A DNA stretch of 64,000 bases from Carallia brachiata (lineage: Eukaryota > Streptophyta > Magnoliopsida > Malpighiales > Rhizophoraceae). Under the pieces are notes generated by a model, which was given only the letters and a program-made list of their open reading frames with translations, did not search any database and had not been told where the DNA came from. The DNA lies in NCBI GenBank assembly GCA_021464245.1, contig JADCRB010000029.1:2817813-2881812 (forward strand). The letters are read 5' to 3'. Below are positions 8,703-57,127 of the stretch, in pieces. Position 1 is the first letter of the stretch. Each line of letters opens with the position of its first letter. Position numbers and translations under genes: made by a program.

Positions 8703-19998
<11,296 letters not shown>

Positions 19999-30989: not shown

Positions 30990-33900
30990 TTAATTGTTGG
31001 TCGTTACATCAGATGAAATAATATCAAAAATAGAACCATGGTTGGCTCTATTACACCGCAAGACACCCTCATGTGCAAGTGAAATTTTCGCCACAGCATG
31101 AGCAGCGCCGTTGTACTGTCTTTTAGTGTGTTGGAAAGCACAGGTTGCAAAATTGGAAGAAAGGAATTTGATGTCTTCAATGAGAAGGCCCACTAAATTG
31201 TTTGCTGGATGGCTTGACTTTATCCCATTGACCACGGTAAGGCAATCAGATTCGACAATAATCTTTTGTAAGCTGCTTTCCACTGCCTGTTGAAGTGCAG
31301 TCCTGATGGCTGCAGCCTCTGCAATTTCCGGGTCCCATGTGCACTTTAGCCCCTTCCCGAGGACCATTAGTGGCTCATTATTTGGGTAGCGAAAAACCAC
31401 GCCCAGGCCAACCCGCCCCCAACCAGTAGCCGCATCAGTGTTGATCTTCACATGATCAGCTGGAGGTGGTTGCCAGCCTACTTGGATTTGCTGCACCTCT
31501 GTTTCCTGTGTCCTTATTGAGGCTCTCTTGGAATCCTCATGAAATCGAAGGGCAAAATGTAATACACTCTCTTGATCACCGGTCTTCCCTTCCATAATAA
31601 AGGAATTGCGAGCTCGCCAAATCGCCCAGGCTATCATGGCCACCCGCTCAATTGAATCACCATCCATCTGAAGGGTTATTGTTTGGAACCAGTCCTGGAA
31701 TTTATCTTGCTGAAACGCTTGAGCTCTTAATCCAAGGGGGCTCATGAACCAAACTCCTTCTGCCCATTGACAATAGAGCAAGGCATGCATAGTAGTTTCT
31801 CGCCCCATTCCACACCGCTGGCATGTCGGATCTATAGGCACTCCTTTCCGTTCTAAATTTGCTGTCGTTGGTAAAAATTCTTTGGAGGCACGCCAAAGGA
31901 AGTGTTTGATCTTACCCGGAATAGTCAGTCTCCATATATGATTCCATTTCCTTGTAGAAGCCGTTGATGAGGAGCCAACATCTGGACCAGTATATCCTCC
32001 GGAGTCTTTGGCCAGTCTATACGCACTCCGAACTGTGTATTTACCCATGGTATCATAGTGCCACACCAGTTTGTTTGCCACCCTTCTCAGGCTCAGCAGC
32101 AATGACAGGATTTGGGCGCATTCATCAGGCATGAAAAAATGGCGCACTAGGCTCTCACGCCATCTCCCTGTATCTTGATCAATTAGAGCGGCAACAGTGG
32201 TGTCAAATAACGGCAGTCGAGGTGAAAGAATTTTGAAACCATTTTGGCTGGGAAGCCATGGGTCGCTCCATATATCAATATCTTTGCCATCACCCCCTCA
32301 TCGTATGCCACGACGACCAGAGCTCTAGATTCACAATACTTCTCCATGCATAACTAGGATTATAACCCAACTTTGCATCCAGAAGACTATCCTTGGGGAA
32401 ATAGCGAGCTTTGTAAATCCTAGCCAACAAAGAATCTGTAATAGTGAGTAATCTCCATACCTGCTTACCGAGCATGGCCAGATTGAAAGAATAAAAATCT
32501 CTGAAGCCCAGGCCACCATCCCTTTTGCTCCGAGCTAAACGATCCCACGATGCCCAATGAATCTTATTTCTGCCCTCCTTACTACCCCACCAAAACCGGT
32601 TAACTAGCTTAGCAACTTCATTGCAGAAATTTTTTGGCAATAAGAAACAGCTCATGAAGTAAGTCGGGATTGCCTGTACCACAGCTTTGATTAACACTTC
32701 TTTCCCGGCTCTAGACAGCAGTTTTTCATTCCATCCATTCAGCTTTTTCCTGATACGGTCCAAGAGTAAATCGAAGGTCTTCTTTTTTGAAAAGCCAACA
32801 GTCATCGGAAGTCCCAGATATTTGTGCGGACGCTCTACAGCCTTAACACCGAGGCAGTCTTCGATAGCATTTATCTGTGATACGAACATTTCGGCTAAAA
32901 GAGAGCTCCGTCTTTTCCAGGTTGATTTTTTGACCAGAGGCATTTTCATACTGGGAAAGAATATCCTTTAATTTTTGGCACTCTTGTACCTTTGCAGCTG
33001 AAAAGATCAAACTGTCATCTGCAAAAAATAGATGGGGACTATTGGGGCTCGACGGCAGATGCGGACTCCACTGATGCTTCCAGTGTGGGCAGCTGAACTC
33101 AATAAGGCCGAAAAACCTTCTGCACACAGGAGGAATAAGTATGGCGATAAAGGGTCCCCCTGTCGCAGGCCTCGAGATGGATAGAACACAGGACCAGGTA
33201 CAGAGTTAGTCATCATAGAGTAAGAGACTGTGCGAACACACCGCATCACTAGCTGTACCCAGTTATTTGCAAAGCCCAGCCTCAACATAGCCTGCTCCAA
33301 GTATAACCATTCAACCCGATCATACGCCTTGCTCATATCAAGCTTAAGAGCCATTGTACTAGTATTGCCTTTGTACCTGTGTTTCATGCTATGAAAAATT
33401 TCAAAAGCCACCAAAGCATTATCAGTGATAAGGCGGTTAGGAATAAACGCACTTTGATTGTCTGATACCACATGAGTTAAGAGAGGCTTTAGTCTGTTAG
33501 CTAGTACTTTCATGACCAATTTGAAGACCACGTTGCACAAGCTAATGGGTCTGAAATCTTTGCATGACTCTGGGTTTGCCACCTTAGGGATCAAACAAAT
33601 GTGCGTGTGATTGATAGATGATGGATCACCACCATTGTTTAGAATGTCTAGCACTGTTTGTGTCACATCATGCCCAACAATATGCCAACAGGATTGAAAA
33701 AAGAGAGCAGGCATTCCGTCTGGACCAGGGGCCTTTAATGGGTGCATTTGATGGAGAGCTTCCAAGACATCTTGCCCAGTGAAAGGTCGGCTTAATTCCG
33801 CATTCATCGCATCAGTGACTTTCGGCACAATGGCATTAAGCACCGGGCTGAGGCCACCGGCACCTTGGGAGCAGAAGAGATCCTGAAAATAAGACAAAAA

Positions 33901-35062
33901 TTCAGTGGCAAATTCATCAATTCTAGTCAAAATTCTGCCATCCTCTGAGCGAAGCCGGCGAATATGGTTACACTTTTTTCTTGCTGATGCACGCCCATGG
34001 AAGAAGCTGGTGTTTCTGTCTCCCTCTTTGAGCCATAATTCTTTAGATCGCTGAGCCCACATTATTTCTCCCTAGCCATGCTTCATCTATTGCGGCCTGG
34101 TTTTTCTTTAAATCTGCTATGGCAGCTAAGGATGGGGGAAGCTTCTCCAAGTCCATCTACTTTTTGCGAAGCTGCCTTATTGTTGTATTGACATTACCAA
34201 AGGCTCGTTTTTCCCATTCTGATAGATAGCGGACACATAGAGAAATTTTGGCCGAGATATCATGTCCTTGGTTAATAAGCCGAGCCTGCATCCATGCATC
34301 CGAAATAATATCCACACAAGAAGGTTCACGAAGCCACATACCTTCAAACCGGAATATCTTCCGCCTCTGTGTCTGTTCTGGGAATTAGTGGTCAAGTTAA
34401 TTAGTAACGGGTTGTGATCAGACCCGAACCTCGATAAGTGATCAACTTGGACGCCTGGATAGAGCTCCAAAAAATCTGAGGATGAGACCACGATCCAGGC
34501 GTTCTTGGACATTGTCTGATGCTACCCGGCCATTTGTCCATGTGAACTCCACCCCACGGTATCCCAAGTCTTGCAATCCACAGGTCTCTGTAGCTTGCTT
34601 AAAAGCTTCCATGAACTGCATAGGTCGTGGTCGACCTCCTTGCTTCTCATAGGAATACATAACCTCATTAAAATCACCACAACATAACCAAGGTTGCGAG
34701 GACTGCGACATAAGAGAATTAAGGAGTGACCATGTCAACCCCTTGTTGCTATCCTCTGGCCAGCCGTACAGGCCCGTAAATCTCCATACCACCGGCTGCA
34801 CACCGTCTTGGACTGAGACATCTATGTGATGGCTATAAAAAGTTTGCAGGGAGATAGATAGTGATTCTTTCCATACCAACGCAATCAACAAAAATACCAT
34901 GTGGAAAATTCAATTTAGTCTTTAATGAATCCATTTCAGAGGAGAATAATCTTGTTTCCAAATGAAAACAAGAGTGGGAGCTTGAAGCTGTAACAGCTTT
35001 TTTATTCTGCTAACTACGCGAAGGTTCCCAAGCCCCCGGCAGTTCCAGCATAAGAGACTCAT
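30990..35062 (-). pseudogene. LINE ORF2: endonuclease, reverse transcriptase, zf-RVT, RNase H (frameshifted)
   Basis: Starts MSLLCWNCRGLG, the usual opening of the plant L1 APE-type endonuclease. The GDFNEV and SDHNPLLI endonuclease motifs are at about 34680 and 34410. Reverse transcriptase follows in 34062-33007 (APGPDGMP, FRPISLCNV, KLDMSKAYDRVEW, GLRQGDPLSPYLF), with the catalytic FADD box in a different frame at about 33025. Then come LPMTVG, the zf-RVT motif with CQRCGMGRETTMHALLYC (about 31800) and an RVT_3 RNase H (KINTDAA at about 31430, ESD at about 31245). At least four frameshifts or stops interrupt it, for example near 34940, 34480, 33030 and 32290. Confidence 0.9.
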
Positions 35063-41400: not shown

Positions 41401-43772
41401 TGTAGGTTGCCCTTAATCAATGCTTAAATTCATACCTATACTTTGCCTTCTCTGTTCACAGGAAATTGACATTGCCTGTCAAGCTCTTGTCTCAGTAAAA
41501 ACTCCAATGGATTTTGAATTTCCAGCAGACTTTTCTAGTGAAGCTAATTTCAAGAGCTGCACGGAGGATGGGATTCCTGAAGTGAAAGACACAGATAGCA
41601 TGGATGTAAATGTTGACTTGAGAGAAATTCAAATGCATGGTTCTGATGTTGCTAGTAATCAAACCTTTGTGCAAGGAGAACCTGTCCATGGGGAAGATAT
41701 TGGCACACATCATCCTCTGCAAGAGCAGAAGGCAACATTTCCTGCAACAGGACTCGGAAGAACTTCAGAAGATGGATACAATTGGAGAAAATATGGCCAG
41801 AAACAGGTGAAAGGTAGTGAATATCCAAGAAGTTACTACAAGTGTACCCATCCAAGTTGTAAGGTAAAGAAAAAGATAGAGCGCTCTCATGATGGCCAGA
41901 TTACAGAAATCATCTATAAAGGTGCTCATAATCATCCTACGCCCCAGCCTAGTCGTCGAGCACAACTGGGATGCACTTCTTCACTTGACGAAATGGCAGA
42001 GATGGATAAAAGTAGTGAAACATGTGTCAAAGCTGAAGGTGGACCCATTTGGAAAAATATGCTATCAGGGCCCAAGGATATTAAACTTGGTTCTGATTGG
42101 AGGGTTGATGGTCTGGAAAGGACATCTTCAACATCTGTTGTGACTGAGCTGTCAACCTCCCAAGGCAAACTTATGGGAACATTTGAATCAGTTGAAACTC
42201 CAGAGCTTTCTTCCACACTTGCTAGTCACGATGATGCTGATGAAGCTGGTGATGATGGGGCCACCCATGGAATGATGTCACTGGGAGTTGGTGCTGATGA
42301 TGATGATGAGTCAGATTCAAAAAGAAGGTACGTAACTATATATAATTTTTGGCATTTTCTATTGAAGACTGCATTACAATCAGTTTGCAAATGTTCCTTT
42401 TTTTTTTCCAGAAAAACAGAGACATGCATGGTTGAAACAAGTCTAGCATCAAGGGCTGTCCGTGAACCAAGAGTAGTTGTTCAAATAGAGACTGAAGTGG
42501 ACATACTTGATGATGGATATCGCTGGAGGAAATATGGGCAAAAAGTTGTCAAGGGGAATCCAAACCCTAGGTATATTTCTCTTTCAGTGTCTTCAATTTT
42601 TGCGTGTGTTCCCACGATCTTATGTGCTTTTCTGTTCAATTGGCTCTTTAGACCGGTATTTACACCCCCTACCGTATTCTGAGACTTGGTAAGGGCTACA
42701 AGACAAATTTTGCTGTCTCAGAGTTAAACATGTTTACATTTTTGTGAAACAGAATCTCTGTGAAAACAAGGTTGAGACTATGTACATCTGATCTTTCTTC
42801 AGACCTCCCAGTATAGGAGGCTTGTGCACTGTGATGTCTAGAATTAAAAATTTGGGGCAATTTTTGCTCAGTTGATTATATATTTATTATTTTGTTTCCT
42901 TTCCTTTTCCTTTTCAGAATGCAAAGATATGCAGTTTTTTCCTCCTTTCTGTTTGAGTGTTCTTGTGTTATTTTCTCATGACGTAGGTCAAATATATAAA
43001 TTTTAATAGTTCTATTTCCTTCTAATTATACAACAGGAGCTATTACAAATGCACTAGTGCCGGATGTTCTGTCAGGAAACATGTGGAGAGAGCCTCCCAT
43101 AATCTGAAATATGTGATTACAACGTATGAAGGGAAACACAATCATGAAGTGCCTGCTGCGAGAAACAGCGCTCATGGTAGCTCAAGCAGCTCTCATTTAC
43201 CTCAGGCTAGTCTCAACGCACAGCCTTCCCTAGCATTAACCAGAAACACAAATGGGCCAAAGTCTGAGACACAAGTTCAAGATTTGGCCCCGAGTTTTGA
43301 TAGAAAGCAAGCATTCAACAATTTTAGAAATACCCCAGGGTACTTGAGACCCAGTTTCTCTGGAAATTTCAATAATGAAATGAAGCTGGGGGCTTCTTCA
43401 ATTTTCCCGATGAAGTGCCCATCTCTCCAAAACACCTTACCATATGGCTCTATTGGGTTCAATCCTAACCACGGTGCTTCCCCTTACCCTGGTTCTATTG
43501 CCTCACTCGTGCCGGATTTTCCAATGCCAGTACCCTCCAGCCTACAAACATCTGCCAGTCTTTCTTTCCCTGGCGTTGGTTTCAACAGTAATGGGAAACC
43601 GGCTAGTCAAGTTCAGCCTTTCCCCTCAGGCCTGTTCATCAGACCTAAACAGGAACATGGGGATGATAATCTTTATAATGCTGGGCCATGCATCATTAAC
43701 CAGGTAAATATGTCTTCAATCTCATCATCGCCAGGAATATATAACAGCAACATGGGAAATTTTCCATCTTGA
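37958..43772 (+). CDS. Group I WRKY transcription factor (WRKY2-like), 5 exons, frame break in exon 1
   Basis: Nuclear DNA-binding protein recognising W-boxes. Exons: 37958-38307, 39987-40157, 41462-42327, 42412-42570, 43037-43772. Corrected length is about 759 residues. The first WRKY domain ([11 protein letters not shown], zinc finger C-X4-C-X22-HNH) is near residue 281. The second ([13 protein letters not shown]4-C-X23-HNH) is near residue 500 and is split by the conserved intron after NPNPR. Exon 1 carries the group I motif [16 protein letters not shown]. The frame from tandem ATGs at 37958/37961 runs through an Asn run encoded by (AAC)n, but the conserved part ([14 protein letters not shown] onward) is offset by two bases, consistent with a 2-base gain at the end of the AAC run near 38088. 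Either the allele is broken, translation starts downstream, or the base calls are wrong. WRKY20-type is an alternative subfamily. Confidence 0.9.
38061..38090 (+). repeat. (AAC)n microsatellite at the WRKY frame break
   Basis: Nine AAC units encode an Asn run and are followed by acacagcggtgg. The conserved WRKY reading frame immediately downstream is +2 relative to the Asn frame, which points to slippage here. A separate (TAA)n repeat lies in intron 1 at about 38418-38450. Confidence 0.75.
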
Positions 43773-46177: not shown

Positions 46178-46340
46178 ATATGAATTAACAAATGTGTCAT
46201 GACCTTAAAAAATTAACAATTTGGGGTCCGCAAAATTTTTTTTCTAACAAATATATTACACCGCGTTAAATTTCGTTAACGAAAATCGTTAAAATAAGTG
46301 AAGTGATACCCTGATTAAGTAAAAATGATGACATGTACAT

Positions 46341-47190
46341 TGTAACGTTTAAATTTCGAGTCTAAAACAATTAAACTCGAAAATATAAAAAATAAATTAC
46401 AAATAAAAATTTAAAAATAAAAGAAAATTTACGTGGGATCGATCTCCGTAGATCCTCCGATTAGTGTTCCTTTTTTTGACTCCGTCAAGGGTTGCACGAG
46501 CTTGATCTTGACAGCAGTGAATTCCATAGATTTTTCTTGAACTGGGTAGACTGAAACTGGATCTGGTTTGGACATTTAGACTACGGTTAAGAACCGCAGA
46601 GACCTGATCTGAGCCGATCTGGTTTAATTTCACCGAGGGTCGAAGGGAATTGTTCTCGGATGAGCTGCCTAGATTTTACTGAGGGCCGTATGAGGCTTAA
46701 TCCCAGCCGGATTTGTAGTAATTTGATATTTTTAGATCTATATTTTCAAAAATTTAGATTTAGAACGATCAGAGAATATAAACTTAAAAATAACTTTAGA
46801 AATGGACACAGCAAATTTTTTGGATTTATCCTTGAAATATCTCTCAAAAAGGAGTTAGGAGAGTATACTGCAGAGTAAAAATACGTAGGAAAAGGAGAAG
46901 TTTTCTTGAGAGATTTTCAAAATTTTGTTTTTTTCTCAAATTCTCTGTATTTTTCTGTTTACAGATTTGCTGAATCTGGATTGATTTGAATGAGGGGAGC
47001 AAGGGCCTATATATAGGGTTTCCCCTCTTGTGTTAAAGCATGCGTGTGAAAGGAATAAGTCGACTTTTCCGTGTGAAAGGAATAAGTCGACTTTTCCGTG
47101 TGAAAGCACGCGTGCGAAAGGAATAAGTTGACTTTTCCATGTGAAAGCAATAAATGGACTATTGACTTTTTTTTTTTTTTTATGTTTACA
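46341..47190 (-). repeat. 3' LTR of the Tat element (850 bp)
   Basis: Near-identical to 56000-56820. It contains three units of a roughly 28-bp repeat (gtgtgaaaggaataagtcga and related) near 47044-47140 where the other LTR has two, which accounts for most of the 29-bp length difference. It ends in a long T tract before atgtttaca. Confidence 0.92.
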
Positions 47191-48114
47191 AATGCCCCCA
47201 CTTCAAAGGTCGGTAAGGAAGAACTTTGCAGACGTGATCCGCACTGAGTCTTGAAGTCCAGTTTGAAACTTGAGATGTCCTGATAAACATTGAATGTTGA
47301 AGTCTTCTATCTTTAGTTAGCCTGCTGTTATTGGATCGCAACAGGAATCCGATACGATCTTGAGAAAGTTAGCAGCCTAGCCAATATAAAAATTGACATT
47401 CTAGCTCCAGGTGCGATCGAGCTTCCATAGCTCGCAAAGGCTAACAAAGGTTCTTTGAAGTTCCAAAACTCTGGTGAGGATGATCCGGTAGGCAAAAAAC
47501 TTGAACATCCCCAAGAGGAAGGCCCAACACTTTAGAACTTTAAGACATGCACACAGAAGACTGACTGTAGTGATGACTCCCGAGTCTGCTCCGACATAAG
47601 GAGAGTAGTTGGAACTTTCCTGTACGTCGTCGCATCTAAAGGAAGATTAGGATGATTGCAGCGTCTCATCCCTCTGTGGTAGATGTGAACTAAAGAGAGT
47701 AGTTGGAACTCCATGACACCGATGACGTTGGAGACTGAGTTTCAAGGGCTTTTAGGGATCCCTTGAGGAAGACTACTCCTTCTTTTCTTAGCTCGTGCGC
47801 CTCCAACTTCTTGATCAAAGAACTTCCTGGGACAAGTGCAGAGACTAGCCATTTTCTTTTGAGAAGAAGAAGAACTGAGGGGTGAGTATTATGGCTCGAA
47901 CATGCAGGATATATATACATAACATAAAGATGTTTTTTTTTTTTTAAAGTAAAAAAGGAGGTACGCAGAATCGAGTAGGGTCCTCCACGTCCCTTTCCCC
48001 CATAAGAGACAAAAGAGGCAGCGGCTGACGCGGGTTACGAAAGTCGTTACCGTCTGCTGCAGAAGTCGTTGCCGTGTGCTGCAGAAGTCGTTGCACCTTA
48101 TCTTGTCAGCCGTC
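47191..48114 (-). other. Tat element 3' region between the WOX-type ORF and the 3' LTR
   Basis: About 920 bp without a recognised protein. Short frames (47714-47532, 47920-47690) match nothing I know. Purine-rich segments and a repeat of cagaagtcgttgcc-like text (about 48030-48095) are visible. It would form the 3' UTR of a sense transcript over the WOX-type ORF. Confidence 0.5.
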
Positions 48115-48726
48115 CTAGTGGGGCCCGAGGCGCAGCTCTAGGTCAAGCTCGGCCTCGTCTGGTAGGCAAATGATGTTGACGTCGCCTTCCAGCTGGTTGA
48201 TACTGCTGGAATATTCTAGAAAGAGTGACAAAGTTTCGCCGGAATGACTCATTTCTTCTAGAAAAGTTCCTCCTAGACTTAAGTACCTAGGAGGGATGAA
48301 CCTTTGGCTGACTCCGTGAGACCACCAGGACCAGTATGCATGCTCCCATAGGCTACGACTTTGATGAACATACCGTGGAGAGACCATTGCAGTGGTAGAA
48401 CTCGAGTCTGCTTCATTTGAGGGTGAAACTGTACTGGTGAGATCTACTATAGGAACGACAGACTGTGCTTTGGAAATAACATCTCTCAGCACCACTCTTT
48501 CCCTATTTCTCCGATTCTGGAACAAAAAATATACATTTTTTCCTTCGACTGCCCCTAGCGGGCGCAGTCGTGAGACAAGTTGGAGAATCTGTGATGAGTT
48601 GGGGATAATACCTTCATTGTTGTAGAAGAACTCCTCCAAAATTTGCAGTTGCGCCATAGTTGGGTGCCACCTTGTACGGGGTGACCTTTCTTCTTCCTTG
48701 TTTTGAGGTTCTGCAACTGGTTCCAT
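48115..48726 (-). CDS. WUSCHEL-related homeobox (WOX) protein ORF carried inside the retrotransposon
   Basis: Uninterrupted 203-residue ORF on the element's coding strand, between integrase and the 3' LTR. Residues about 18-78 form a WOX homeodomain: TRWHPTMAQLQILEEFFYNN (helix 1), a second helix around SSQILQLVSRLRPLG, and recognition helix EGKNVYFLFQNRRNRERV. Asn51 and Arg53 equivalents are present (FQNRR), but the near-invariant Trp48 is Leu. Residues 165-169 (TLSLF) resemble the WUS-box and residues 194-200 (LDLELRL) an EAR repression motif, in the same order as in WUS-clade proteins, which act as nuclear regulators of stem-cell identity. It is shorter than WUS and has no intron. It is probably a captured host gene copy. 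Function as a transcription factor is inferred only. The pol genes beside it are broken while this frame is intact. Confidence 0.85.
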   Translation of the reverse strand: MEPVAEPQNKEEERSPRTRWHPTMAQLQILEEFFYNNEGIIPNSSQILQLVSRLRPLGAVEGKNVYFLFQNRRNRERVVLRDVISKAQSVVPIVDLTSTVSPSNEADSSSTTAMVSPRYVHQSRSLWEHAYWSWWSHGVSQRFIPPRYLSLGGTFLEEMSHSGETLSLFLEYSSSINQLEGDVNIICLPDEAELDLELRLGPH

Positions 48727-48936
48727 CTTTCTTGTAGCAGAGGAGTAAAGGTCTGGTATGTGGTGAAGATCGGTTGAGACTTAGGTTAGGTTTCAGACTC
48801 AAACCCTCCGTTGCTTTTATATTTTTGGGCCGTTCACAGTTTATACTCATGCGGGCTAGGAGTTGGATTGGATTTTGAACTTGGGTTCTGAACTTGTGTC
48901 TGGAACTTGGGGTTTTTGGATTTCGATTTTTTTGGA

Positions 48937-49000
48937 TTGGATTTGGGTCGAGTGTTTGGGTTTTGGACTTGGATTTGGGTCGAGTGTTTGGGTTTTGGAT
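48937..49000. repeat. Tandem repeat 2 x 32 bp in the Tat 3' region
   Basis: Units at 48937-48968 and 48969-49000 share ttggatttgggtcgagtgtt and the following gggttttgga, differing only at the last base. Looser copies of the same theme extend to about 49100, followed by a T-rich tract to 49230. Tat elements commonly carry tandem repeats between pol and the 3' LTR. Read on the minus strand, this tract lies directly upstream of the WOX-type ORF. Confidence 0.8.
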
Positions 49001-49233
49001 CTGGATTTAGTTTTCGGGCTTTTGAGTTGGGCTTTGTGTTTTCTGATTTGGGCTCAAGTGTTTGGGCTTGGATTTTCGGGTTTAGATTTTCGCTTGGATT
49101 TTCAGATCGGGACTTCAGAACTTTTTTTTTCTTATTATTTTTTTTATTTTTTTCTATTTTTGATTTTTGATTTTTTTTTCTTTTTTTGATTTTTTTCTAT
49201 TTTTTTGATTTTTTTTTTCTTTTTTCAACATAT

Positions 49234-52200
49234 TTACACATAATACTGTTTCAAAAATTTACCATTGATTGGGCCAATTCGGATGCCTTCTTGGTCTGAG
49301 AGCATGTAAGCGTTGTGAGTGTAGGCCTCCTGCACTAAGTATGGCCCGTCCCATTTGGAAGTAAGCTTGTCACCAGGCCGATGCTTCATGTTGATGGGCC
49401 GTCGTACTGCAAGAACAAGGTCTCCAACTTGAAAAGATCGAGGGCGGACCCTGCGGTTGAACGTGTTGGTGAATCGGGCTTGGTAGCACTCAAGTTGCTG
49501 TTGTGCTTCAAGCCTCCTTTCATCGAGGGCTTCTAACTCATCCAGACGTAGGCGAGCATTCTCCTCCTGTGTGAGTCCTTCCAGAACAACCATGCAGAGA
49601 GATGAAATCTGTGTTTCCAAAGGCAGTATTGCTTCGACACCGTAGACAAGTGAGTATGGCGTTGCCTATGTTGGAGTCCGGTAAGTTGTACGATACACTC
49701 ATAATGCCTCTGAAATTCTGTCATGCCAATCTCTTTTGGATTTAGAGACTACCTCCCGCAATAGGTTGCATAAGGTCTTATTGAATGCTTCGGCCAAATC
49801 GTTAGCCGGGGCATTGTATATGGATGACTTGTACTGCTTGAACTTGAACTTCTCGCAGAGCTTGTCGATCAAGCTGTTGTAGAACTGCTTGTCATTATCA
49901 GTGATGATGAATCGAGGGACTTCATAGCGATAGATCAGCTGAGTCCGAATGAAATTGGCAACATGCTCCTTCTTTACCTCTCTAAGTGGAACAGCTTCGA
50001 CCCATTTTGAAAAGTAGTCTGTTGCTGCGAAGATGTAAAGGTGACCCAGGGATGACTTTGGCAAGGGCCCCACTAAGTCAAGACCCCAAGCTTCAAAGGG
50101 CCAGGACGAGACAGTTGGATGCAGTGGCTCCGGTGGTTGATGTATGTAATTCGCATGAAATTGACAAGCTTGACAGGTTTTAGCAAACTCAATTGAATCA
50201 CGTACCATGGTTGGCCAGTAGTATCCCATCCTTCTGAGTTGGAAGTGAAACTTAGGCCCCGATTGATGTCTGCCACAAACACCTGAATTTACTTCAGCGA
50301 GAGCTTGTTTTGCCTCTTCATTGTCTAGGCAGCGAATCAATACTCAATCAAAAGATCTTCGATACAAAGCATCTTTGAGATATATGAAGCGGGGAGCTCG
50401 TCGTTGAATTTTTGTCTTATGATGACGATCTTCGGGCAGCTTCCCGTGCTGTAGGTAGTCAATGATTGGTTGGCGCCAATCTTCGTTCTCCGCGAGACGT
50501 ACAGATACCGCGTTGGCTGCTGTAATTTCTCCATCATCCTTCTGCGGCACTATCCATTTCTGGCAGACGGCAACAACTGTAGCTTGGATTTCTGACTTTG
50601 CAAGAGAGGTGGCCAGGTTAGCCAATGCGTCTGCCTAAGTGTTTTCTCGTCGAGGCACATGCTCCAAAGTGATGCTTTCAAATTCATCCATTAGCTGTCG
50701 AGCACGTTGATGGTAAGGCGCAAGGTCCTCTTTCTTCACATCATACAACCCTGTAAGTTGGTTGATGACGAGCTGGGAATCTCCATGGACTTCTATAGTT
50801 GGAATCTTCATATCGACAGCCATTTGAAGACCAATGATCAAAGCCTGGTATTCAGCAACATTATTTGAACATAACTCACCGAGAATGATAGCATATGGTA
50901 GTATTTGTCGTTGAGGAGTGACAAACACTATGCCGGCACCAGCACCATCACGCCTTGCTGCACCATCAAAGAACATCGTCCATGGTGGCAGTGTCTCAAT
51001 GTAAAAGACCTCTTCATCTGGAAGATCATCTGTGAACTCCCAATCGACGGAACGGGTGATCTGCAAGGAAGTCTGCTAGAGCTTGTCCTTTGACTGCTTT
51101 TTGAGGCACGTAGACAATGTCGTAGCTTTGTAGGATTACTGCCCACTTGGCAAGTCGTCCTGACAAGATTGGTCTAGATAAGATATATTTGACAGGATCA
51201 GCTCTGGCAATGAGACGTACCGTGTGAGCTGCATGTAGTGCTCAGCTTGTCAATGGCAAAGAACAGTGCTAGACATGTCTTTTCAATGGGCGAATAACTC
51301 AGTTCCGGACCGTTTAGTGTTCTGCTCAAGTAATACAGGGCAACTTCCTTTCCCTGCTCGTTTTCCTGTGCAAGCAAGGCTCCCAAAGATCTTTCCTGCG
51401 CTGCAATGTAGAGAATCAACGACTTTCCTTGAATTGGAGCACCCAGGACTGGTGGATTGGAAAGGTACTTCTTTATGCTCTCAAAGGCTTTGCTGCAAGC
51501 TTCGTCCCACTCGAAGTTGACATCCTTCTTCATCAACCGATGGAAAGGTTGACATCTCCCAGCTAAATTGGAGATGAAACGGCGAATGTAGGCCAGCTTT
51601 CCTTGTAGACTTCGCAGCTCGTGCAGGTTTTTAGGTTCAGGCATCTTTTGAATTGCCTCAACCTTTGACTGATCAACTTCGATTCCACGATGGCGCACCA
51701 CGAACCCAAGAAACTTTCCTGATGTGACACCGAATGCACACTTGAGAGGATTCATTTTGAGCTGATGCCTGAAGTCTTTCGAACACTGTCTTGAGATCCT
51801 CGAGGTGGTCTTTGCGCTTCTTAGTCTTTACAACTAAGTCATTAACATAACATTCTACAATCTTGTGCAGCATGTCATCAAAAATTTTTTGCATGACACG
51901 CTGATAAGTGGCGCCAGCATTTTTTAATCCGAATGACATAACTTTGTAGCAGTATATACCTTTTGGGGTGCGGAATGCCGTCAACTCTTCATCTTCTGGT
52001 GCCATTCTGATTTGGTTATAGCCTGAAGAACCATCCATGAAAGACAATGCTTCGTGACCCGTTGTTGCATCGACTGTGATCTCCGTTATTGGCAATGGAA
52101 AGTCATCTTTCGGACAGACCCTGTTAAGATCTCGAAAATCAACACATACCCTCAACTGTCCATTCTTCTTTCTTATCGGGACTATATTGACAATCCATGT

Positions 52201-53702
52201 TGGGTAAGTGACCTCTCGGATTAAGCCAACATTGATCAGCTTGTTAACCTCCTCCTCGATTTGTGGAATGAGTTCCGGGCAGAACCGTCGTTGTGGCTGC
52301 TTGATAGAACGAACACCCTTCTTTACTGCTAGACGATGCACCGCAATTTTCGGATCAAGTCCAGGCATTTCTTTGTAACTCCATGCTAACACGTCCCTGT
52401 ATTGACTTAATACCTGAACATATTCTTGCTCTTTTTCTGCAGTAAGTAAAGCACTTACAAATGTGGGTCGGGGATCTTCGGAGAGCCAAGATTGACTTCC
52501 TTGAGTTCATCAACAGTTGCTTGGCCACCATCTTCAAGTTTCGGGGGAGCCTCTTTTACTTCGCCGTCTGATGAGTCGGAATCATCCTCCTCGCTAATTG
52601 TGACATGAAATGTGGAGCCCCTGACTTTATCTTCTTTGTTTGACTGGATAAGCCTGTCTTGTTTGGTGGTGGTGTGATGGCACGTGCATCAGCTCGGCTT
52701 CGGATTTTAGCGTGATCCGCACAGGTGACTTCTTTTGATAGCCTAAGCCAGGTCGGGACGTTGAAGATTGAGAAATGACATCACTTGTGGATGGCAGTGT
52801 ACCCATTGTGCTTGGGTTTGAGAAGTCATAGCCCGCCTTGGCCAAAAGCTTGTATGCATTAGGATCGAATCCTTCGTGTGTTCTTCTTTCTGGAAGTGAG
52901 CCACCTTTGACTGCCCCCGTGTGTGGTCTGACGAAGCCTTTTAATGGTTTTGAGGACAAAACCAGCTCAATCTTTGGTATTGGCAGAGTGTGAGTCTCCT
53001 TCAAGTTGTACAGTTCCTTGTGTCCTCCTTCCTGTTTGAAATCAATACAATAAGAGAAAGGAGGTTGACCTGCTGAGCGTCGTGACTTCGGCACATAGCG
53101 TAGGACTGGAGTGGAGCTCGAAGAAGCAACATCCCTCGGACGAAGTTCAGCAGGCTGTGGCAGCTTTTCATTTGTCGGATCCTGAGGTTGAGCATTGACA
53201 GGTTCTTCGACAGCTTTTCCCTTTTTGTGGATGCCCCCAGTCCAAGTAGCTTTGATGGAATGATCTCCAGATTTTCTGTGTCGGTGTAGAAGACTGCATC
53301 CGCCAAATGTGATTCAGCATCATCAAACTGCTTTAAATCAGCATTGACCTTTTGAACGCCACCATTGTAGTACTTGAAGCACTGATGCAGGCTTGAGAGC
53401 ACAACTCCATTTCCATGAATCCACGGTCGTCCTAGCAACATCTTATATGTGGTACGTGCATCAATCACATGAAATAGAGTGCTAGAAGTGAGATTACCGA
53501 TAGTTAACTCCAATCGAATCATCCCAATTGCTTTCTGTCCTCCTTGATTAAAGCCATGAATCATCAAGTGGCTGTCTGGTAATTCATCAATGCCAATGCC
53601 AAGCTCCTTTATGGTGGATTTTGGGATAATATTGACTGCCGAGCCATCGTCGATCAGAATACGTCGGACCTTCTGCTCTCTCACATAGCTTGATACATAC
53701 AA
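49234..53702 (-). pseudogene. Tat pol: protease, RT, RNase H, archaeal-type RNase H, integrase (degenerate)
   Basis: Protease at about 53665 (ILIDDGSAVNIIP). Tat-type spacer with FDPNAYKLLAKAGYDF at about 52850. RT in 52392-51673 (RVCVDFRDLNRVCPKDDFPL, FMDGSSGYNQI), where the catalytic YVDD box reads YVND. Gypsy RNase H in 51755-51198. A second RNase H in 51066-50635 (FFDGAARRDGAGAGIV, EVHGDSQLVINQL). Integrase in 50340-49699 (GLDLVGPL, ITDNDKQF, AEAFNKTL: the D-D-E triad) and its C-terminal part in 49620-49234 (VGDLVLAVRR, WDGPYLV). Stops and frameshifts separate these blocks, so no functional polyprotein is encoded. The frame ends GKFLKQYYV and stop, a typical end for this group. Confidence 0.9.
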
Positions 53703-53840: not shown

Positions 53841-55708
53841 TTAGAGTGTATTGCTGACTTGATTTTGCCACACTTCTGTTGATTGCAAAGCTATAAACAG
53901 CTGAGGGTTAGCGAGAAGGGTTTGGAGAGCTTCATATACCTTCTCCGTTGTCGACTTTTTGTTGTTGAGCGGCTCCTCCTTACAGTGTGTCACTTCTTCT
54001 GATGGTTTTGAAGTGATGGTGGTCTGGTTTGCCGAGGTTATGCCTTCCTGGTCCAGAATGATTTTATTCTGGCTTTTGAGCTTCATGATTAGCTCCTTTA
54101 GGACGAAACATTTCTCGGTTGGATGACTTACTATGCGATGATATTTGCAGAATCTTGGATCGCTGACTCGATCCTTTTCATTGGGCCGCTTGCACTCTGG
54201 GAGTTCGATCAGCCTCGCCTCCAAGAGTTGTTCAAGAATGTCGGGAACGTCTGAGTCGGGGAATGGATACTGCTTCTGCTCCAACTCTCGCAATGTCACT
54301 TTCCTTCTTTCCTGTTGTTTTGGTTGAGTTATTTGAGTCGGATGATTTACCTTAACTTTGGCTCCCACTTTTACTGGTGCGGCTTCAACAGTCATCACTT
54401 CTTTTCCTTTTCCGGAACTGTTGGGTTTCTTAATCTCCCTTCTGCCTCCTTACTTGTCCAACTGGATGGGAACCGTACCCCCAGAAGTCTGGATGCTTAT
54501 CTCATATCATGTGCGCGGGTCGCCAGTTCTTCGAGGGTTCGAGGTTTAATACCCTGCAGGATGTATAACAGCTCCCAATGCATTCCCTGGATGCACATCT
54601 CCACGGCAGAAGTCTCCGTCAGGCGATCTTTGCAATCCAAGCTGAGGGCACGCCATCTGTTGATGTATTCGACAACGGGCTCTCCTTTCCTTTGTTTGGT
54701 GCTGGTAAGCTCCATCATACTTACCGTCCTTCGAGTGCTGAAAAATTTGTTGAGGAACTCTCGTTGTAGCTGTTCCCAACTGTCGATTGATTCCGGTTCA
54801 AGATTTATGAACCAGGTAAAAGCGGTCTCCTGAGTGAACGAACAAACTGCTTTACCAAGAGATCCCGTAAGTTCCTGCGTTGTTGCAGGTTTCAACGAAG
54901 TGGGCGATGTGTTGTTTGGGATGCCTCGTCCGTCGAATTGTTCAAATTTGGGCGGCTGGTAGCCCAAAGGCATGTGAGACTTTCGATCCATCTGGTGTAC
55001 GGTTTGACATACATCTGATCCTTAGAAGGATGTAGCTTGTTGCAGTCGGATCGTATTGGCTATCATTTCCTGCAACTGTTGAACAGATAGCGAAGCTATA
55101 GAATTTGAGGGTGGCAGCTGTGTAGAACTACCTGGTCGCTTTTCTGCAGTGAAGACGTCGGCTGGTGTGGCTTCTGGAGTGAAACCAGGTGGATATGGTT
55201 GCTCCTCGCGGATCTCAGGATCAATTTGGATTAGGGCCTTTCCTTTGAGAGCGGCGATCTGTTGATCTTTTTCCTCCATGACTCTGATCAGCTGCAAAAT
55301 TTTGTTTTCCAATTCTGAAATTCTTTTTTTTGTGCTGGTTGTGTTGGTCATCATGACGGCAACAGATGAGGCTCCGCTAAAGACTGAGGGAGAGAGTTCT
55401 TCTGATTCTTCTGTGTGGATCTCTATAGAATGAGTCAGATTCTGTTGAGCGGGCTTCGTCGTGTTGCCCCCGACTTCGATCGGGGTGAGTGATCGACTCC
55501 TCCATGCGACAAGAGAGTCAGGGGAGAGATCTTGTTGCTGTGCGAGCTGTGGACTCTCCATTTCGATATTTTGTTGAGTTTGGACGGCGAGAAATCGTGT
55601 CCGTCCACGAGTTTCTGGGCCTGCGTACCCAGGTAGGGTAGTTGATGCAGGCAATGAAGCCATTGCCTTCTTGTTGGTACCGGCAGCTGTACTTCTCTTT
55701 GGTGCCAT
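53841..55708 (-). pseudogene. Tat gag (degenerate)
   Basis: Begins MAPKRSTAAGTNKKAM with a coiled-coil-like segment (ISELENKILQLIRVMEEKDQ). An in-frame stop at about 55022 precedes the retrotransposon gag domain at 54991-54497 (WFINLEPESIDSWEQLQREF, WRALSLDCKD). A frame change then leads to 54398-53841, which carries CKYHRIVSHPTEKCFVLK, a metal-knuckle-like motif seen in Tat gag. It would form the capsid of the particle if intact. Confidence 0.85.
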
Positions 55709-55726
55709 TTGAAGTGCTGGATACCT

Positions 55727-55940
55727 GTAAATTTTTTTTTTAACTTTTTTTTTACTTTTACTTTTTACCTTTTTTTCACTTTTTACTTTTTACTTTTTAC
55801 TTTTTTTCACTTTTTTTTACTTTTTACTTTTTTTCACTTTTTACTTTTTACTTTTTTTCACTTTTTTTACTTTTTATTTATTTTTTCTTTTTTTTTTCTC
55901 TCGGCTCCCCTTTTACCTTTTTCTTTTTTCTTTTTTTTTT
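55727..55940. repeat. (TTTTTAC/TTTTTCAC)n low-complexity tract in the Tat 5' leader
   Basis: A long pyrimidine tract with regular TTTTTACTTTT units lies between the 5' LTR and gag (A-rich, AAAAAGT repeats, in element orientation). Confidence 0.8.
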
Positions 55941-55999
55941 GTTGCTTTAAGGGACAGGAGATGAGAGGTGAAGATATCTCACCGAACGTGCTAAAAATT

Positions 56000-56820
56000 T
56001 GTAACGTGTAAATTTCGAGTCTAAAACAATTAAACTCAAAAATACAAAAAATAAATTACAAATAAAAATTTAAAAATAAAAGAAAATTTACGTGGAGTCG
56101 ATCTCCGTAGATCCTTCGATTAGTGTTCCTTTTTTTGACTCCGTCAAGGGCTGCACGAGCTTGATATTGATAGCAGTGAATTCCACAGATTTTTCTTGAA
56201 CTGGGTAGATTGAAACTGGATCTGATTTGGACATTTAGATTACGGTTAAGAACCGCATAGACCTGATCTGAGCCGATCTGGTTTAATTTCACCGAGGGGT
56301 CAAAGGGACTTGTTCTCGGATGAGCTGCTTGGATTTTACTGAGGGCCGTATGAGGCTTAATCCCAGCTGGATTTGTAGTAATTTGATATTTTTAGATCTA
56401 TATTTTCAAAAATTCAGATCTAGGACGATCAGAGAATATAAACCTAAAAATAACTTTAGAAATGGAAACAACAATTTTTTTGGGATTTATTCCTGAAATA
56501 TCTCTCAAAAAGGAGTTAGGAGAGTATACTGCAGAGTAAAAACACGTAGGAAAAGGAGAAGTTTTGTTGAGAGATTTTCAAAATTTTCTTTTTTACTCAA
56601 ATTCTCTGTATGTTTCTGTTTACAGATTTGCTGAATCTGGATTGATTTGAATGAGGGGAGCAAGAGCCTATTTATAGGGTTTCCCCTCTCGTGTGAAAGC
56701 ATGCATGTGAAAGGAATAAGTCGACTTTTCCGTGTGAAAACATGCGTGCGAAAGGAATAAGTCGACTTTTCTGTGTGAAAGCAATAAATGGACTATGGAC
56801 TTTTTTTTTTTATGTTTACA
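56000..56820 (-). repeat. 5' LTR of the Tat element (821 bp)
   Basis: Partner of 46341-47190. Scattered substitutions and one repeat-number change separate the two. Its outer edge is followed by tgcat, where the matching Mutator-like arm and the other flank have tacat, so the g is probably a later mutation. Confidence 0.92.
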
Positions 56821-57127
56821 TGCATAAAACAAAACGTCTATTTAGTTGAATAAATGGATTGGGCCTATAGTCCATTTAATCAAATAATCTCTTCATTTGA
56901 AATGGATTCTAAATGGGCGTTTTGTTTTATGTACATGTTATCATTTTTACTTAGTTAGTGTGCCACTTCACTTATTTTAACGATTTTCCTTCACTAAATT
57001 TAACAGTGTGATATATTTATTAGAAAAAAATTCTATAGAACCCAAATTGTTAATTTTTTAAAATCATGATATATTTGTTAATTCATATAAAATTGATGAT
57101 TTTTTAAGTAATTAACCCTTTTTAAAA

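Follow-up and report, generated by a model that had tools for sequence, protein, structure and literature searches.

The window, that is, the whole 64,000-nt stretch of DNA analysed here, contains a 10,480-bp LTR retrotransposon that lies on the minus strand and has a single pair of LTRs. The 5' LTR (56000-56820, minus strand, 821 bp) and the 3' LTR (46341-47190, minus strand, 850 bp, beginning with TG and ending with CA on that strand) are 94.6% identical, with 44 differences over 819 aligned bases (K2P 0.056). An age of about 2-4 million years follows if plant substitution rates are taken as 0.7-1.3e-8 per site and year. The 5-bp flanks, TACAT and TGCAT, represent a target duplication with one change. 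A likely polypurine tract, the purine-rich GAAGTGGGGGCATT (47191-47204, minus strand), adjoins the 3' LTR, and no obvious TGG start of a primer binding site was seen after the 5' LTR, at positions 55940-55999 of the minus strand. Inverted repeats (46178-46340 and 56929-57088, 80-86% complementary) bound the stretch occupied by the element, and a short palindrome-like sequence marks its right edge (56821-56940); the insertion site thus appears to lie within a foldback or MITE-like element.

The internal part of the element, likewise on the minus strand, contains a gag region made of two ORFs (54497-55708; PF03732, E 8.3e-15, in 54497-54991), a protease-like stretch (53001-53702; PF13650, E 0.0021, below its cut-off), reverse transcriptase (51673-52392; PF00078, E 1.5e-24), a first RNase H (51198-51755; PF17919, RT_RNaseH_2, E 3.3e-21), a second RNase H (50635-51066; PF13456, E 4.4e-22), and an integrase in two pieces (49234-50340), with H2C2 and rve domains and an SH3-like C-terminus that scored below its cut-off. 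The second RNase H, a mark of the Tat lineage, matches structures listed in the PDB as ribonuclease H1/HI, Rv2228c, and ST0753, which we take to be RNases H of the archaeal type. An aRH between RH and INT is described for the angiosperm Ogre/Retand subclades of Tat (PMC6317226), and the order RT, RH, aRH, INT on the minus strand fits this rule. The Tat lineage, proposed in a preliminary description of this DNA, is therefore borne out by the presence of both PF17919 and a second RNase H, PF13456, between reverse transcriptase and integrase. The gag-pol part is broken into ten ORFs of at least 120 codons spread over three frames, and autonomous transposition of this copy is therefore very unlikely. 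Two A-rich tracts were noted on the element strand, one after the integrase (49112-49230) and one in the leader before gag (55719-55940).

The integrase is followed by a spacer (48727-49233, minus strand), in which the A-rich tract precedes a TATAAA sequence located 95 nt before the ATG of an additional ORF, with no other ATG in between. As a candidate internal promoter, TATAAA was rejected, since it occurs twice in the 507 bp, a count matched by 259 of 2,000 mononucleotide shuffles and thus not above chance. The ORF itself (48115-48726, minus strand) is intact, running for 203 codons from ATG to TAG, and lies on the coding strand of the element between integrase and the 3' LTR, in agreement with the preliminary description in both length and location. 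Between this ORF and the 3' LTR, at positions 47690-47930 of the minus strand, a TATATATAT stretch is followed by a 36-codon ORF, which starts with ATG and encodes the basic run AKKRR, and by overlapping small ORFs; these sequences may be what is left of a second accessory gene. Three small ORFs downstream of the 203-codon ORF had no match in Pfam.

Residues 17-77 of the 203-codon ORF scored as a homeobox in a profile search (PF00046, E 8.3e-8, 32.4 bits versus the curated cut-off of 22.9). A phmmer search of the PDB at E <= 1 matched two different sequences: WUSCHEL, at E 5.2e-15 over residues 17-78, and STENOFOLIA, at E 4.2e-12. The earlier reading of the ORF as a WOX protein of the WUS type is supported. 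WUSCHEL (WUS) is the plant stem-cell master gene. The homeodomain (48493-48678, minus strand, residues 17-78) contains the one-residue insertion characteristic of the WUS type, at residue 35 (Y54 of WUS). An AlphaFold2 model based on a 12-sequence alignment has three helices, with pLDDT of ca. 84-89 across residues 21-70, and a Foldseek search with this model returned seven matches at E <= 0.001, all of them WUS or STENOFOLIA homeodomains, with the WUS homeodomain as the best. The model indicates compatibility and is not independent proof, because WUS relatives are present in its alignment. A poor model made from the single sequence (pLDDT 41.3) was set aside. Antisense reading of the locus was rejected as well: the frame opposite the ORF codons is full of stops, and the other plus-strand frames there are open for at most 77 codons.

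Downstream of the homeodomain, the ORF encodes a WUS-box-like TLSLF (48220-48234, minus strand, residues 165-169) and an EAR-like LDLELRL (48127-48147, minus strand, residues 194-200, with LDLEL at 194-198), found in the WUS order and at the residues where they had been reported. The two are 29-31 residues apart. The reference sample came from a profile search that passed 3,451 proteins, the best 120 of which (plant or unnamed proteins) were used; a pattern recovered the homeodomain in 115 of the 120 and five were dropped. There were 89 homeodomains of a longer form and 26 of a shorter one; "WUS-type" refers here to the longer form and is therefore a grouping by length itself. By source name, within the best 120 of 3,451 matches, the longer form was found in 29 of 29 WUSCHEL and in none of seven WOX5 proteins. 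TLxLF was present near the end of 71 of the 89 WUS-type proteins in this sample, and was followed by LxLxL, 28-73 residues further on, in 69 of the 71. The proline usual after the WUS-box is replaced by leucine in the ORF. When residues 85-203 were shuffled 20,000 times, TLxLF arose in 34 shuffles, LxLxL within the last 20 residues in 391, and both in order in none. Against a profile of the 71 WUS-type C-termini, the C-terminal part of the ORF scored 2.7 bits, and 136 of 5,000 shuffles scored higher. Beyond the two short motifs, the profile thus gives no convincing sign that the C-terminal part is homologous to WUS.

The probability that a random ORF merely resembles a homeodomain by chance is negligible in view of the PDB and Pfam E values and of a gapless alignment with WUS that contains 30 identities in 60 residues, and this explanation was rejected; the absence of ordered motifs from the shuffles agrees with the earlier opinion that chance resemblance is unlikely. 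The gapless alignment has a score of 165. Alignments with the other members of the comparison set, consisting of Arabidopsis WOX homeodomains and STENOFOLIA, required one to three gap positions and scored 110-141; the difference arises because the ORF shares the one-residue insertion, Y54 in WUS. In the WUS homeodomain, this insertion forms a pi-bulge (PMC7203112). The Met-Glu start of the ORF is also found in all 12 rows of the 12-sequence alignment.

The phylogeny of the homeodomain (67 columns) was less definite. Under a mixture model (79 rows), the ORF had a saturated branch and fell among WUS, WOX1-5, and STENOFOLIA, with support of 98/90 for its separation from WOX9/11/13. Under a simpler model (24 rows, including 10 of the 89 WUS-type and five of the 26 WOX5-type homeodomains), it joined WOX9/11/13 at 88/75, on a very long branch. 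None of the placements compared on the 24-row tree was rejected, with p-AU values of 0.179 for the ORF with WUS, 0.273 with WOX5, 0.266 with WOX1/STF, and 0.078 with WOX13. Trees of the homeodomain alone, therefore, did not place the ORF with WUS, while a clade with WUS was not rejected. We rank WUS first because of the Y54 insertion, the Met-Glu start, the WUS-box, and the EAR-like end, and not because of the tree.

The homeodomain of the ORF is strongly diverged. It is identical to WUS-type homeodomains from the best 120 of 3,451 matches at 24-29 of 59 positions, while unique WUS-type homeodomains from the same sample share at least 45 of 59 positions with each other (mean 53.5 of 59). The much lower identity of the ORF shows that its line has accumulated far more change than is seen in WUS across the sampled plants. 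The changes are unevenly distributed: in a comparison with the 89 WUS-type homeodomains from the best 120 of 3,451 matches, the ORF kept 23 of 36 WUS-invariant columns and the consensus residue in 5 of the 23 others (Fisher p 0.0016). The 31 changes in the homeodomain had a mean BLOSUM62 score of -0.03, versus -0.62 in the neutral null, where 34 of 2,000 replicates were as mild. In simulations of neutral substitution to ca. 50% homeodomain identity (200-250 substitutions, with substitutions alone and no indels), 0.15-0.4% of ORFs were left stop-free. The open frame, the kept columns, and the mild changes together show that selection acted on the protein along much of its branch. The ORF, though much changed, thus evolved under protein constraint somewhere on the branch, and this constraint may have acted either after capture, in the element, or earlier, in a host paralogue.

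A simulation covering the time since the present insertion (17 substitutions) left ca. 52% of neutral copies stop-free, and so the intactness of the ORF since insertion is no evidence of selection. Survival by chance over this period is in keeping with passive transduction, in which the element would recently have taken up a transcript from a host paralogue of the WUS type that was already divergent and evolving fast, and would now carry it as a passenger with no function for the element. This rather unlikely, though serious, alternative is also in line with the results of searches for relatives, in which only one copy was seen and no relatives were found in databases. When the ORF alone was compared with 5.8 billion proteins, 188 candidates were obtained, none at E <= 0.01; the homeodomain region gave 11 candidates in the same collection, none at E <= 0.1. 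The collection contains WUS of many plants. By our estimate, a relative of 112-355 residues with more than ca. 60% identity would share several five-residue words with the query, and so no close relative seems to be present, genomes left out of the collection and unannotated genes aside. The lack of a close host paralogue in this collection speaks against passive transduction, with the reservation that the host's own proteins may be absent there. Within the window, the sequence outside the element gave no blastn match to it at 1e-3, and tblastn with the ORF recovered the ORF itself and one chance match of 11 residues (47480-47512). Nothing was found in viral contigs with the ORF, the reverse transcriptase, or the 12-sequence alignment, or in prokaryote contigs with the ORF, as expected for a plant gene.

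The origin that we favour, giving it somewhat better than an even chance, is that a Tat element of the Ogre/Retand type captured a WUS-type host gene. The capture would most likely have proceeded through RNA, because the ORF is intronless while WUS genes contain introns. The captured gene would then have been carried in sense between integrase and the 3' LTR as an accessory ORF, and would have diverged far under protein constraint, part of which may have acted while it resided in the element. Alternatively, a retrocopy or a fragment of a host WOX gene could have inserted after integration of the element, in which case the ORF never moved with it. The single copy is compatible with such an event, and the A-rich tract at 49112-49230, between integrase and the ORF, could be taken as its trace; that tract, however, is 5' of the ORF and not 3', as a poly(A) retrocopy would require, and a similar A-rich tract is present in the leader of the element. 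Repeats in the window were searched for with a minimum length of 40 nt. Because the ORF is, in addition, on the pol strand and at a site where extra ORFs are frequent in Tat elements (PMC6317226, PMC11963269), we regard late insertion of a retrocopy as improbable.

If expressed, the product of a WUS-type gene captured by the element would read DNA with the residues used by WUS. R38, N90, and R94 are the base readers of WUS, and Q89 is so less clearly (PMC7203112); all four are kept in the ORF. K82, N83, R96, and R100, which contact the backbone, are likewise unchanged; two other backbone contacts differ, with Phe in place of Y86 and Arg in place of K92. W39 is also kept, and H91 and A93 are altered. 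The ORF has Leu (residue 68) in place of W87, which does not vary among the 89 homeodomains of the WUS type and the 26 of the WOX5 type from the best 120 of 3,451 matches. W87 is a residue of the homeodomain core, and its substitution is the main ground to doubt that the homeodomain of the ORF is stably folded. Two further WUS positions are changed, S36 to Arg and F101 to Asp. In WUS, S36R increases the affinity for TAAT six-fold, and F101A leaves DNA binding in place, mainly by the monomer (PMC7203112). The ORF product is thus predicted to bind TAAT more strongly and to dimerise less. It is expected from its sequence to be a nuclear homeodomain protein, and it may repress its targets via the EAR-like end, which we assume to link to TOPLESS. 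As a whole, the product resembles angiosperm WUSCHEL in the Y54 insertion, the Met-Glu start, the nine kept residues listed above, and the succession of TLxLF and LxLxL near the C-terminus; it differs in the low identity of the homeodomain, in S36R, W87L, and F101D, in length (203 residues versus 293 in Arabidopsis), and in being encoded by an intronless ORF inside a retrotransposon. Even as the result of a plain capture, it is a natural, strongly diverged WUS-type homeodomain in which two of the three substitutions sit at positions already probed in WUS.

A captured homeodomain might serve the element, through its own transcription, nuclear retention, or target choice, and not host development. 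Such a role is compatible with the capture that we favour. The additional domains that plant Gypsy elements retain often have RNA- or DNA-related functions (PMC9289625), and DNA-binding proteins are the predicted products of many antisense ORFs in Retand elements (PMC11963269). We consider it unlikely that the homeodomain serves the element: the predicted DNA-binding ORFs of Retand are antisense whereas the present one is in sense, and neither LTR contains an excess of TGAA, TAAT, or G-box sites. TAAT is scarce in the LTRs, with six sites in 46341-47190 and seven in 56000-56820 versus 12.6 and 12.0 expected from dinucleotide shuffles (297 of 300 and 289 of 300 shuffles, respectively, had as many or more). 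Autoregulation via LTR sites was rejected, as there is no excess of WUS-type sites.

Tat elements that carry host-type genes as accessory ORFs are already known. Elements of the Tat family (Ogre-sister) from Phalaenopsis likewise contain one acquired host-type domain in an ORF of its own, AlkB/2-ODD, which is an RNA demethylase and not a transcription factor; two species yielded 38 and 23 consensus sequences of them, and their protein is active in vitro, while here there is one copy (PMC9289625). The same source describes Ty3/gypsy elements with a B3 domain, in Aegilops tauschii, and others with a YgdH domain of the LONELY GUY family, which it links to cytokinin activity; the latter occur in Citrus and, if the n5 filter is lifted, also in Populus (PMC9289625). 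Both kinds, too, carry domains of plant developmental regulators, from protein families other than WOX. Retand elements with TRP28 ORFs are similar in having a long region between pol and the 3' LTR and an extra ORF predicted to bind DNA, and differ in that the ORF is antisense, contains another domain, and is present in 97% of the clusters there (PMC11963269). In maize Bs1 and other transductions, host gene sequence is included in an LTR element, usually in sense; Bs1, unlike the present element, contains pieces of several genes, and no stem-cell regulator is named in the available portions of these accounts (PMC7264820, PMC13317346). REXdb counted extra ORFs of at least 250 codons and would thus miss an ORF of 203 codons (PMC6317226).

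The string "homeo" does not occur in the main texts of PMC11963269, PMC7264820, PMC13317346, PMC9289625, PMC11728184, and PMC6317226, and a search of titles and abstracts of the open-access literature gave no WUS-type ORF in a retrotransposon among the top matches listed. The preliminary description knew of no Tat element encoding a stem-cell transcription factor; within those limits, this still holds, and the WUS-type cargo appears to be new.

Plants do not set aside a germline early, and inherited transposon insertions must occur in cells that descend from the shoot apical meristem. An element carrying a relative of the gene that defines those stem cells would make it testable whether transposons steer plant stem-cell fate to the benefit of their own spread. 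A Tat family could, in principle, keep a WUS-derived transcription factor as a working accessory gene that shifts precursor cells of the shoot or germline to a stem-cell-like condition and thereby makes its transpositions heritable. This scenario is speculative and quite unlikely; if it is true, a Tat family with such a gene would be a plant counterpart of retroviruses with host growth regulators.

Several other features were observed in the window. Exons of a glutamate synthase gene, which we take to be of the ferredoxin type, are present on the plus strand at 13465-16867, and exons of a gene with two WRKY stretches (within 41420-42682) at 41420-43772 of the same strand. These two genes, together with the type of the retrotransposon, point to a plant as the host. 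Reverse transcriptase, zf-RVT, and RNase H-like RVT_3 domains, located in separate ORFs on the minus strand at 30990-34062, probably belong to a LINE-type non-LTR retrotransposon.
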